Shown in pieces: positions 13,957 to 32,711 of a stretch of 35,233 bases of DNA. The stretch covers positions 1 to 35,233 of the forward strand of contig CAKZMQ010000002.1 of the NCBI GenBank assembly GCA_937128795.1. Reading direction: 5' to 3'. A model generated the notes under the pieces. The model was not told the origin of the DNA. It made no database searches and worked only from the letters and a program-made list of their open reading frames with translations. This DNA is from an uncultured Solirubrobacterales bacterium. GTDB taxonomy: Bacteria; Actinomycetota; Thermoleophilia; Solirubrobacterales; JACPNS01. Made by a program: the position numbers and the translations under genes. The first letter of the stretch is position 1. Every line of letters begins with the position of its first letter.

Positions 13957-15693
13957 CTAACTCCCATCGGCGAACATGGTTGACTCAGGGACGAGGTAGT
14001 GCGCGCAGTTGTGGACGATGATGCCCTCGGCGGCGTACCATCCGGTCGGGCTTTTAGTGTTGTACACATGACACGAAAGAGCAACCCTATCGATGCTGCG
14101 CACGCGCGAAAGCTCTATGAGTCCGGCCAGACTCTCTCGCAGATCGCGCGCGCTTTCCGCATCCGCAGCACTCAAGTCCGCGCGTTGGTGGTCGCCGCCG
14201 GTGGCACCATTCGTCCGGTCGGTGGCGGCGTCGGCTACGGAATGAAGCCCGTCGACACCGCTGAAATCGTGGCCCGCTACGAGAGTGGCGAGAGCGCCCG
14301 GTCCATCGGACGCGATCTCGGATGCGCGCAGGGCACCGTCTACAAGCGATTGACCGAGGCCGGGGTTCCCATCCGCTCCGTTGCTGAAACCATGGATCGG
14401 GCACATGCCGCCGTGCGCGGCATCAACCGCACCGAATCGGAGTTGATCGAACGAGCCAGAGCCATCGAGGCTGCCCCCGGCAACGTCAGCCGATATGAGA
14501 TCGACCTGCGCACCATGCTTGCCGATCGCGGCATCGTGACGATCCCGCAGCGCGCCGTCCATGTGTACAACGTAGACCTCGCTGCCGAGCCCGTCGCCGT
14601 GGAAGTCTTCGGGGGAAACTGGCATTTCGGGAAGGATCACCGGCAGCGATTCCGCGACCTTGCCGATCGGGGCTGGCTGCCACTTGTCGTCTGGATCGAC
14701 CCCCACCCGAAGCATTGCGGCCTTCATGTCGGTGCAGCGGATCAGGTCGTCGCCCTCGTGGAGTCGGCCCGCCTCAACCCACCCGCGCGCGGTCAGTATT
14801 GGATGGTTCGGGGTACAGGTGATCTTGTCGCCGCCGGTAACGTCTATGACGACGCCTTCGCCCTCGTAAGGCCGACTGAGGACATGATCGCGCGGGCCAG
14901 CGATCATCGTTGACCCCACAAAACAATTCGGATGAAACGGCGGCCCCGGAACAGACGAGAGCGCCCACACTTCCTCACCGTCAAGAGTCGATCGACTGTC
15001 ATCAAGTGAGACTAGGCGTCCTTCCCACTCTTGGCAAATCGGGCAGGGCTTGGTCGAGTGGTTGATTCGCGCCAGTTCGATGCCCTGCTGGGCCATGCGC
15101 TGAATCTGTGCGTTGACGACCGCTTCGCGCGTCGTGGTGCGCGAGACCATTTCGGCGTATCGCTTGAGATCCCACTCGCGCCCGATTCGGTCGGTGAAAC
15201 CTTTGATGCCCTGCCGCGTCAGCCGCTTGACCAAATCTTCGGACGCCTCGCGGCGCGATCCGCTCGCGCCGAGCAGGTTCAGCGTCGTCGATCGCAGCCC
15301 GGCCTGGCGGTAGACGTCGAAGACGCGGCGCCCAACTGTTCGACGAGCGTCGCCCAGCGAGCCTTGAAGCGCCCGCTGCACTTCTTCCATCGCCTCACGG
15401 TTGACAACGCCGAACGTGAAGTCAACGGTGCCGCGTGTCTTGCGGAGTACCGACGCGTCGCCTTCGCCCCACGCGTTCGCGATCAGCTTCGCGGCCAGCG
15501 GGTCAGACTCTGCGCCGATCGAGTCCAGATACGTGATGACCGACTGCAACGCATAGGCGCGCTCCTGCGCTCGCCCCATGTTGCGAGTCATCAGCGCCAA
15601 TCGCACTTCACGCGCGACCACGCGCTGCGCCTCGCGGTAGAGCGCCACGAGTTCGGCAAGCCCGTCCTCGGCGCGTTTGCGATCGACAGCCAT
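13957..15693 (-). CDS. Head morphogenesis / minor capsid protein (Mu F-like, min_cap2-like) containing an intein
   Basis: A 578-residue precursor, ATG at 15693 overlapping the previous stop (TAATG). Residues 1-256 are the capsid-protein N-part: a long helical region and then TTTREAVVNAQIQRMAQQG, KPCPICQEWEGRLVSLDD and PPFHPN. Residues 257-562 are an intein, and the last 16 residues (CAHYLVPE and after) complete the extein. The ligated product would read PPFHPNCAHYLVPE, which restores the conserved HPNCRH-type motif of these proteins, and would be 272 residues long. It probably acts in the capsid near the portal. The gene can only work after protein splicing. Confidence 0.85.
   Translation of the reverse strand: MAVDRKRAEDGLAELVALYREAQRVVAREVRLALMTRNMGRAQERAYALQSVITYLDSIGAESDPLAAKLIANAWGEGDASVLRKTRGTVDFTFGVVNREAMEEVQRALQGSLGDARRTVGRRVFDVYRQAGLRSTTLNLLGASGSRREASEDLVKRLTRQGIKGFTDRIGREWDLKRYAEMVSRTTTREAVVNAQIQRMAQQGIELARINHSTKPCPICQEWEGRLVSLDDSRSTLDGEEVWALSSVPGPPFHPNCFVGSTMIAGPRDHVLSRPYEGEGVVIDVTGGDKITCTPNHPILTARGWVEAGRLHEGDDLIRCTDMKAAMLRVGVDPDDKWQPAPIGKVAESLPVILPEMPVSPEDFHGDGLGSEVYVVHMDGALRDRHDAAIGKHGAQVDLISADVAGGSLDGSGSFDQLRFGAVDAAHGGMCPIHGFSNGADGNPGLGQSLVDGALRASEIASDGPGALATLVAGHDFSGVDGLHSVADAATDRTNGATGGDHQRADLSAADAESARDLRESLAGLIELSRVRSIDRVALSCHVYNTKSPTGWYAAEGIIVHNCAHYLVPESTMFADGS
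14055..14060 (+). promoter_or_regulatory. Candidate -10 box for the antisense endonuclease gene
   Basis: TAGTGT, a TANNNT-type element, ends seven bases before the ATG at 14068, the spacing seen at the other plus-strand genes. It lies within the codons of intein block F on the other strand. No convincing -35 is seen (GGCGTA at 14032-14037). Confidence 0.35.
14068..14913 (+). CDS. Vsr-like homing endonuclease encoded antisense within the intein
   Basis: A 281-residue protein read on the plus strand, wholly inside the intein DNA. Residues 11-45 are one helix-turn-helix (ARKLYESGQTLSQIARAFRI) and residues 63-98 a second (IVARYESGESARSIGRDLGC). From about 144 the sequence follows the Vsr/DUF559 nuclease pattern: LRTMLADRGI, YNVDL with D170, VAVEVFGGNWH with E179 and H186, then RFRDLADRGWLPLVVW. 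The likely start is ATG 14068, immediately beside intein block F and seven bases after TAGTGT; an in-frame GTG at 13999 would extend it past the intein end. Two DNA-binding modules plus this nuclease suit site-specific cutting of intein-free alleles. It replaces the usual in-frame endonuclease domain. Confidence 0.85.
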   Translation: MTRKSNPIDAAHARKLYESGQTLSQIARAFRIRSTQVRALVVAAGGTIRPVGGGVGYGMKPVDTAEIVARYESGESARSIGRDLGCAQGTVYKRLTEAGVPIRSVAETMDRAHAAVRGINRTESELIERARAIEAAPGNVSRYEIDLRTMLADRGIVTIPQRAVHVYNVDLAAEPVAVEVFGGNWHFGKDHRQRFRDLADRGWLPLVVWIDPHPKHCGLHVGAADQVVALVESARLNPPARGQYWMVRGTGDLVAAGNVYDDAFALVRPTEDMIARASDHR

Positions 15694-31250: not shown

Positions 31251-32711
31251 ATGGCATTTGTCGGTTACGTCCGTGTGTCGCACGTCGGCTCCCGCGAGGG
31301 TGAGTCTTTCCGATCCCCGACCGAACAGGCCGAGCAGATTCAGATGTGGGCGAAGCTTCGGGGTGTTGATGTTGAAGTCTTGGAACCCGAGCTGGATGAA
31401 TCGGGGGCGAGACTTGACAGGCCGATTCTTGAAAAGGCGATCAAGGGCATCGAGTCGGGGCGATGGGAGGGGCTTGTTGTGGCGTACCTCTCGCGCTTCG
31501 CCAGATCGACCAAACACCTGCTGCACTTGACGGATCGGATTGAAGCGGCTGGCGGGTCGGTGGTGTTCGTCGCCGAGAACTTGGACACGTCCACGCCTGC
31601 CGGTCGGATGCAGCGCACCATCCTTGCTGCCGTGGCCGAGCAGGAGCGCGATGTGAAAGTTGAAGACTTTGCGCGTCGCACCGAAGATGCGGTGGCGCGG
31701 GGTCTGTGGAAGTTCCGTCAGCTCCCCCTGGGCTACAAGCTGGTCAAGCGCAGGCCCAGCGGTTTGGCGCCCAGCGTCGATGCGCCGAAGGTCAAGTGGG
31801 CGTTCCACGCTCGCGCGGGCGGGGCGACCATCACGTCGATCGCGGCGAAGATCAGAATGACCCCCAACGGAACGCGTCGCCTGCTGGCCAACCGCGTTTA
31901 TCTGGGGGAGATTCGCGTCGGCAAGTTCGTCAACGCCGAAGCCCACGAACCGCTGATCGATGTGGCGACCTTCGATCAGGTTCAAGCCATGCACGGCAAG
32001 GTACCCGCGCGAAGCAAGCGCCCCGCGTTGCTTGCCGGACTGATCCGCTGCCAGTCCTGCGGTCACGTCATGGCGCGAATGAATCCCAAGAACCCGATCT
32101 ATCGCTGCCACGTCAACCACTCGGCTGGCCGCTGCCCTGCGCCTGCGGGAATATCCGCACACAGAATCGAGCCATACGTCAGCGAAGTCGCCCGCGCAGA
32201 AATCCAAGTGCTGACGTTCTCCGTGCAGCGGCGAAGCGGCGAAGGCGAAAAGCTCCGCGCCGAATTGACACGCGCCGAATCCGAGCTGGCCGCCTACCTT
32301 GAAGCGACCGAAGTCGCGGGCCTGCCGATGGAAACCTTCGTCGCCGGATCGCGCAAGCGTCAAGCCACCGTCGAAGCGGCCCGCGCTCGGCTGGATGCCT
32401 TCTACGCGATCTCCCCGATCGGCGAAGGGTTCGCGGACGGCGCAGAGTTCTGGGATGACTTGAAGGCTCACGAACGAAACACCCTGCTACGCGGCCTCAT
32501 CGAGGCGGTCGTCATCTTGCCGGTCGGACGCGGCATCGCCATGCCCGCCCGCGACCGGGTTCGCATCTTCGCCAAAGGAACGATCGACGTTGCTTACCGT
32601 GGTGGCGGGGTCGCCCTTCCGATCGCCGCCCTGCCGTTCCCCGACGCCGACGATCCACGACTGCTCGGGGTTGCGAGCTTCGAGGATCGATTGCGCAGCA
32701 CGGGCGGCTGA
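31251..32711 (+). CDS. int: Large serine recombinase (integrase)
   Basis: A 486-residue protein. Residues 1-150 are the catalytic resolvase domain: GYVRVS with the nucleophile S10, LSRFARS, then STPAGRMQRTILAAVAEQER. A recombinase domain follows (about 150-260: LPLGYKLVKRRPSG, NGTRRLLANRVYLGEIRVGK). A zinc ribbon lies near 265-300 (IRCQSCGHVMARMN, YRCHVNHSAGRCPAP), and a coiled coil near 330-390 (AELTRAESELAAYLEATEV). It joins attP and attB through Ser-DNA links, making the phage temperate. It stands alone on the plus strand. Confidence 0.9.
   Translation: MAFVGYVRVSHVGSREGESFRSPTEQAEQIQMWAKLRGVDVEVLEPELDESGARLDRPILEKAIKGIESGRWEGLVVAYLSRFARSTKHLLHLTDRIEAAGGSVVFVAENLDTSTPAGRMQRTILAAVAEQERDVKVEDFARRTEDAVARGLWKFRQLPLGYKLVKRRPSGLAPSVDAPKVKWAFHARAGGATITSIAAKIRMTPNGTRRLLANRVYLGEIRVGKFVNAEAHEPLIDVATFDQVQAMHGKVPARSKRPALLAGLIRCQSCGHVMARMNPKNPIYRCHVNHSAGRCPAPAGISAHRIEPYVSEVARAEIQVLTFSVQRRSGEGEKLRAELTRAESELAAYLEATEVAGLPMETFVAGSRKRQATVEAARARLDAFYAISPIGEGFADGAEFWDDLKAHERNTLLRGLIEAVVILPVGRGIAMPARDRVRIFAKGTIDVAYRGGGVALPIAALPFPDADDPRLLGVASFEDRLRSTGG

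Follow-up and report, generated by a model that had tools for sequence, protein, structure and literature searches.

In canonical mobile inteins, the nuclease is fused within the same polypeptide as the intein, and DNA-binding parts of the helix-turn-helix (HTH) type have been described for the EDxHD group of nucleases (PMC3943268, in the excerpts consulted). The intein described here lies in the window, a stretch of 35,233 nucleotides (contig CAKZMQ010000002.1, assembly GCA_937128795.1) from an uncultured Solirubrobacterales bacterium. It interrupts a phage head-morphogenesis gene on the minus strand, and the plus strand of the same DNA carries, wholly inside it, an open reading frame (ORF) of 281 codons (Table 1). 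Like canonical mobile inteins, it has HINT splicing ends around a predicted homing endonuclease and empty alleles in relatives, but the nuclease is on the opposite strand and would be a separate product. It is very probably an intein with an antisense homing endonuclease laid codon-on-codon over it, predicted to combine a Vsr/EDxHD-type fold with HTH segments, and it likely spreads by that enzyme cutting intein-free head genes.

The fractured genes of Dassa et al. 2009 are said to be split inteins around a free-standing EDxHD gene. They reportedly share with this locus the association of an EDxHD nuclease gene with an intein, whereas here host gene and intein run on without a break, with the nuclease gene lying over the codons of the intein; a split-intein fractured gene was rejected, as the sense frame is unbroken in the window and over the match in 149 of the 150 distinct loci compared. 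The predicted catalytic fold is also that of Vsr and of the EDxHD protein I-Bth0305I, a mobile intron protein, from which this gene differs in its antisense coding within an intein and in an Asp position that does not agree with the 3r3p sequence. In actinophages, the ShiLan insert likewise has an endonuclease, an out-of-frame HNH, that shares its DNA with an open frame of the host gene; unlike the present element, its nuclease is HNH, its host gene is different and it has no detectable splicing domain (PMC11855218, sections consulted), and the word antisense is absent from the main text of that paper. An insert of the ShiLan type was rejected for the window, where the splicing blocks are present and the nuclease is on the opposite strand.

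Head genes of Jersey-like phages were already known to hold inteins (PMC8425127, excerpts consulted), and these, including that in the Escherichia phage Snoke record, belong to the same intein family in the same gene. The antisense gene is unmentioned in those passages and in the features of the Snoke record over that stretch, and the words antisense and opposite were not found in the mycobacteriophage intein survey PMC5050341. No report of this layout was found in the literature searched, and whether the arrangement is new depends on the actinobacteriophage-intein preprint of Gosselin, Arsenault and Gogarten (2025), which lay outside that search.

Two Open Frames in One Fixed Phase

Relatives were collected by tblastn, which matched 106 phage records (14 of them opened), and by profile or single-protein scans of IMG/VR and GTDB, which list best matches only (e.g., the best 80 of 220). 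The total is 180 loci with 150 distinct matches, second fetches of the same contigs (L117, L119, L133, L134 and L136) being excluded from all counts. Scored over the matched stretch with three codons trimmed at each end, the antisense frame is open in 145 of the 150 distinct loci and the codon-aligned sense frame in 149, while the remaining four frames are open in 1, 0, 0 and 0. The block B motif is present in 150/150; the C-terminal junction motif, sought over a limited distance, turns up in 140/150, and the other 10 include contig ends and ends beyond that distance. The loci compared thus show two overlapping open frames in one fixed phase, together with splicing motifs. In L131 and L132, a single internal stop breaks the antisense frame while the sense frame stays open, possibly through nuclease decay or sequencing error; L132 still matches L139 better in the antisense than in the sense frame, which may point to a recent loss or a sequencing error.

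In all 14 opened phage records, the match is antisense inside one continuous coding sequence (CDS), always codon-on-codon, this CDS being annotated variously as a head-morphogenesis, minor head or capsid, structural or hypothetical protein. In L010, the match extends slightly beyond the antisense stop. The names of the 12 GTDB records place them in Firmicutes, Actinomycetes, Chloroflexota, Gamma- and Alphaproteobacteria, Cyanobacteria, Gemmatimonadales and PVC. Within the phylum of the window, 10 of 396 genomes gave matches, five of them to the HTH part only, and a viral-contig scan with the window antisense protein alone confirmed no relative. A sequence-only reading of the window had placed both the 306-residue intein and the 281-residue protein at the coordinates now found, and had asked whether homologues are also antisense within inteins or always free-standing; no free-standing relative appeared among the 150 distinct loci drawn from the best matches listed.

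Constraint on the Two Strands

The plus codons lie exactly on the sense codons, with antisense position 1 at sense position 3, so that the third, wobble base of a codon on either strand pairs with the first base of a codon on the opposite one. Start-codon, stop-codon and codon-choice counts were based on the loci with automatic intein boundaries (106 of 153 kept, 91 distinct). In the 91 distinct inteins, Leu and Ser codons that make an antisense stop number 6/4255 in intein interiors versus 553/5006 outside inteins in the same open frames. The intein of the low-GC (guanine plus cytosine) Vibrio phage 1.113 (GC 0.44) has such stops at 1 of 29 Leu codons, at residue 2, and at 0 of 34 Ser codons; its exteins have them at 8/21 and 11/24, respectively.

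Variation was compared in 16 hand-picked locus pairs, some from the same phage groups, aligned on the antisense protein; L130, L131, L132, L091, L099 and L050 were excluded, five for an antisense stop in or near the match and one for unread bases. Extein differences fall mostly at sense position 3 (1489/1202/2431 at positions 1/2/3 over 4468 codons), whereas differences in the overlap fall mostly at sense position 1 (1505/551/982 over 3937 codons). In each of the 16 pairs, the antisense wobble base is the commonest site of overlap variation, and identity is higher in the antisense than in the sense protein. The pattern is the same in two pairs for which the sense protein guided the alignment.

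The balance shifts along the intein. In 13 pairs (three lacked an anchor motif and were dropped), sense/antisense identity is 0.80/0.72 at the N splicing end, 0.68/0.74 in the nuclease C-terminal part, 0.82/0.89 in the DFHGDG core, 0.46/0.66 in the HTH region and 0.83/0.62 at the C splicing end, and the splicing ends vary at the sense wobble base. These comparisons show that it is the antisense frame that is conserved in the middle of the intein and the sense frame that is conserved at its two ends, in agreement with the structure models, which are confident for the sense protein at its ends and for the antisense protein over most of its length. The DFHGDG stretch is strongly conserved on both strands.

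Start Codon and Ribosome-Binding Site

The predicted antisense start is overprinted on intein block F. The codon opposite the block F His (HVYNL) is ATG in 77/106 loci and GTG in 22/106, and a loosely defined ribosome-binding motif is found within 16 bases in 96/106. The Leu opposite this motif is encoded by CTC in 65 of 78 cases (expected 22.0, standard deviation (sd) 3.8), the control Leu in block B by CTC in 24 of 76 (expected 21.1), and the block F His by CAT in 66 of 85 (expected 35.9, sd 4.3). The Gln next to the Leu opposite that motif shows no codon bias (CAG 20/34, expected 22.7). By these counts, codon choice in the relatives is shown to form the antisense start and ribosome-binding site. 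In the window copy, Thr replaces that block F Leu and there is no clear ribosome-binding site. Selection on the frame, the start codon and the ribosome-binding site argues that the antisense protein is made in most relatives, against the possibility, raised in the sequence-only reading, that it is not made.

The Predicted Proteins

The two HTH segments read earlier from the plus-strand sequence are borne out by Pfam, which places HTH_7 in two stretches (E-value 1.5e-9). The nuclease family match is weak (MTES_1575, E-value 0.035, 14.6 bits, cut-off 38.2), and a single-sequence search of the window protein against sequences of solved structures gave only 2lvs (E-value 0.71). The Vsr-like core suspected from the letters reappears in the predicted model, which has a Vsr-like catalytic fold with a homing endonuclease among its best structural matches. 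Aligned with 3r3p, Glu144 and Glu179 fall on Glu and Asp170 falls on Ala. The model and the alignments support the view that the plus frame encodes a conserved protein in which HTH stretches accompany a nuclease domain predicted to fold like Vsr (EDxHD type).

The sense intein has the N-terminal Cys, block B TxNH, block F, terminal Asn and +1 Cys expected for splicing; the +1 residue is Cys in 106/106 loci with automatic boundaries, although the pattern admitted Cys, Ser or Thr. The Pfam family Intein_splicing scores 26.0 and 28.3 bits on the window against a cut-off of 35.8, which the relatives L154, L064 and L162 reach. The structure model predicts HINT ends with a predicted local distance difference test (pLDDT) above 90; its confidence is high across residues 1-70 and 261-306 and low across 124-157 and 168-243. 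The best solved Foldseek matches are Mtu RecA inteins (prob 1.00, E-values from 1.1e-3). The sense middle is predicted to be mostly unstructured. An in-frame endonuclease there was rejected, as Pfam, PHROG and NCBIfam show no endonuclease family in it; PHROG and NCBIfam matches in the sense intein are intein, head or helicase profiles, or weak.

Empty Alleles in Relatives of Other Carriers

Sequence comparison shows, in relatives of other carriers, alleles that lack the intein at precisely its insertion site. Among Gordonia phages (40 listed of 110 matching records), seven carry the Vivi2-type intein, 21 span the site empty and 12 have an insert of about 825 bases. In Pseudomonas phages, 14/38 carry the intein, 23/38 have an empty span and 1/38 is cut by the record end. 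Gene relatives of Salmonella phage LSPA1 (60 listed of 451) include five with an empty span, many others matching the gene only partly and being left unclassed. The empty alleles of Shivanishola, BUCT566 and ER10 read through the site with no base gained or lost, and in binned comparisons the flanks of occupied and empty alleles share 90-100% identity in each 50-base bin, a level that does not climb as the site is approached.

A Second Antisense Frame Type

Gordonia phage Thing3 (PP978874.1, L199:918-1742) holds a different intein of 275 residues, with a Hint_2 match, at the same MuF site. Its codon-aligned antisense frame reads as LAGLIDADG-like, a label that rests on a short match to I-MsoI (E-value 0.0013) and on reading the motif by eye; Pfam gives no family for the protein. 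Relatives of this protein comprise nine Gordonia records plus nine weaker matches elsewhere, most of the latter under endonuclease annotations, including HNH or DNA endonuclease features in cyanophage PP and Caulobacter phages. Related frames were seen in Sitar, Lennon, Nordenberg, SchottB and Barsten. A viral-contig scan with the Thing3 antisense protein confirmed no relative, and no ribosome-binding site is evident upstream of its antisense ATG. In the one pair compared, Thing3 and SchottB differ 45/5/10 at sense positions 1/2/3 of the overlap, with identity of 0.94 in the antisense versus 0.71 in the sense frame, and 47/35/149 in the exteins; this wobble signature is the same as in the first type.

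Antisense nesting is probably a general, repeatedly evolved architecture of mobile inteins, in which EDxHD- and LAGLIDADG-type nucleases would each lie codon-on-codon opposite HINT, block B serving as a late nuclease beta strand and block F as the nuclease ribosome-binding site and start; splicing and homing would be bound together in the DNA, with their proteins produced separately from opposite transcripts.

Mechanism and Alternative Explanations

With both the HINT ends and the nuclease fold predicted by models, we infer splicing, expression, cutting and transfer as follows. The HINT ends would splice the intein from the head protein, the sense middle being mostly a passive linker. The antisense gene would start opposite the block F His, and its separately translated product would cut the empty HPN/C-type site. 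Repair would then copy the whole intein, nuclease gene included.

The antisense frame might instead be an accidental mirror, left open and similar-looking by a constrained sense protein of a GC-rich conserved intein. The window is GC-rich (~0.62), in this overlap phase a constraint acting on one strand leaves its mark on its partner, and the DFHGDG core is conserved in both readings. The codon-position test gave the reverse of sense wobble variation in every pair, however, low-GC carriers such as Vibrio phage 1.113 keep the antisense frame open, recognisable domains lie in the antisense protein and none in the sense middle, and the start codon and ribosome-binding site are under selection; an accidental mirror is accordingly rejected as extremely improbable. 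It is also very improbable, if slightly less so, that the insert has lost splicing and remains part of the head protein around a selfish antisense nuclease, as proposed for the ShiLan insert. The predicted lack of structure in the sense middle and the persistence of the ShiLan insert without detectable splicing domains (PMC11855218, sections consulted) would fit this, but the splicing ends are predicted as HINT, are conserved while varying at the sense wobble base, and are followed by the invariant +1 Cys.

A real antisense protein that is no homing enzyme, such as a regulator or a nuclease against competitor phages kept through DNA shared with a useful intein, is unlikely too, if the least so of the three. 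Its HTH stretches are transcription-factor-like, and cutting of the empty site is what we infer. Against this stand the homing endonuclease among the best structural matches, the carriage of the gene in a mobile element whose site is empty in close relatives, and the presence at the same site of an intein with a LAGLIDADG-like antisense frame.

The Locus and Its Host Gene

The window, which is the beginning of its contig in a 2.4-Mb genome, contains phage genes, a portal, terminase, major head protein and integrase being recognised among 10 proteins scanned. An integrase or DNA invertase-like gene (31251-32711, plus strand; phrog_95, phrog_125) suggests a temperate phage. Rfam and tRNA scans of the window gave no match. 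The host CDS encodes 578 amino acids, its start being taken as the ATG at 15693.

Table 1. Features of the intein, the antisense gene and the host gene in the window.
Feature	Position	Strand	Basis
Host gene: MuF-like/minor capsid head-morphogenesis CDS with intein	13957..15693	-	Phage_min_cap2, E-value 6.8e-21; phrog_581 minor head protein, E-value 6.1e-30; translation
N-extein, ending ...FHPN	14926..15693	-	Translation
C-extein and stop codon, beginning CAH...	13957..14007	-	Translation
Intein, 306 residues, Cys1 to HN	14008..14925	-	Boundaries from sequence; predicted HINT ends; Foldseek best matches RecA inteins
Intein block B, TPNHPILT	14791..14814	-	Sequence; antisense residues 242-249 on same codons, including predicted beta strand 243-248
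Sense motif DFHGDG	14590..14607	-	Opposite antisense VAVEV with conserved Glu179
Intein block F, HVYNT	14056..14070	-	His codon CAT is reverse complement of antisense ATG
Intein block G and +1 residue, HN/C	14005..14013	-	Sequence
Antisense gene, 281 codons and stop: predicted homing endonuclease	14068..14913	+	ORF, Pfam, model, comparison of loci
First HTH region (helices in residues 10-43)	14095..14196	+	Model; two HTH_7 stretches
Second HTH (HTH_7, residues 63-96)	14254..14355	+	Pfam
Predicted Vsr/EDxHD-type nuclease domain, residues 138-257	14479..14838	+	Model; conserved E144, Y167, N168, D170, E179, W185, H186 in alignment A4

For 10 sense proteins of relatives, Pfam gave MuF, minor capsid or VG15 (the last below its cut-off) in eight, three of them with a portal fusion, and the intein domain alone in two, one of which (L084) is head morphogenesis by PHROGs. 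The sense protein of L160 matches a phage metallopeptidase, and those of L162 and L168 match only intein-bearing profiles; with no MuF family match in these three, the element probably occurs outside MuF genes as well. The profile of the head-protein family phrog_15127 spans the intein plus head-protein sequence, so that it assigns intein carriers to the head proteins even when their host gene seems to be of another kind.

Implications

Fused intein endonucleases tie cutting to production of the host protein, whereas here two separate products would come from opposite strands, which could allow the timing of homing to be independent of head-gene expression. Changes in the overlap are subject to constraint from both frames. 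Comparison among loci gives strong support to this extensive antisense overlap of genes, which occurs in phages and in genome contigs of several bacterial phyla. Its measurable wobble signature, together with start signals that coincide with a splicing motif, makes it possible to test how antisense overlapping genes arise and are maintained. Antisense ORFs are annotated at the site in one of the 14 opened phage records (PK1), which suggests a class of homing endonuclease that annotation misses. By sequence comparison, the family is widespread, and the same layout recurs with the second, endonuclease-like antisense frame of Thing3.
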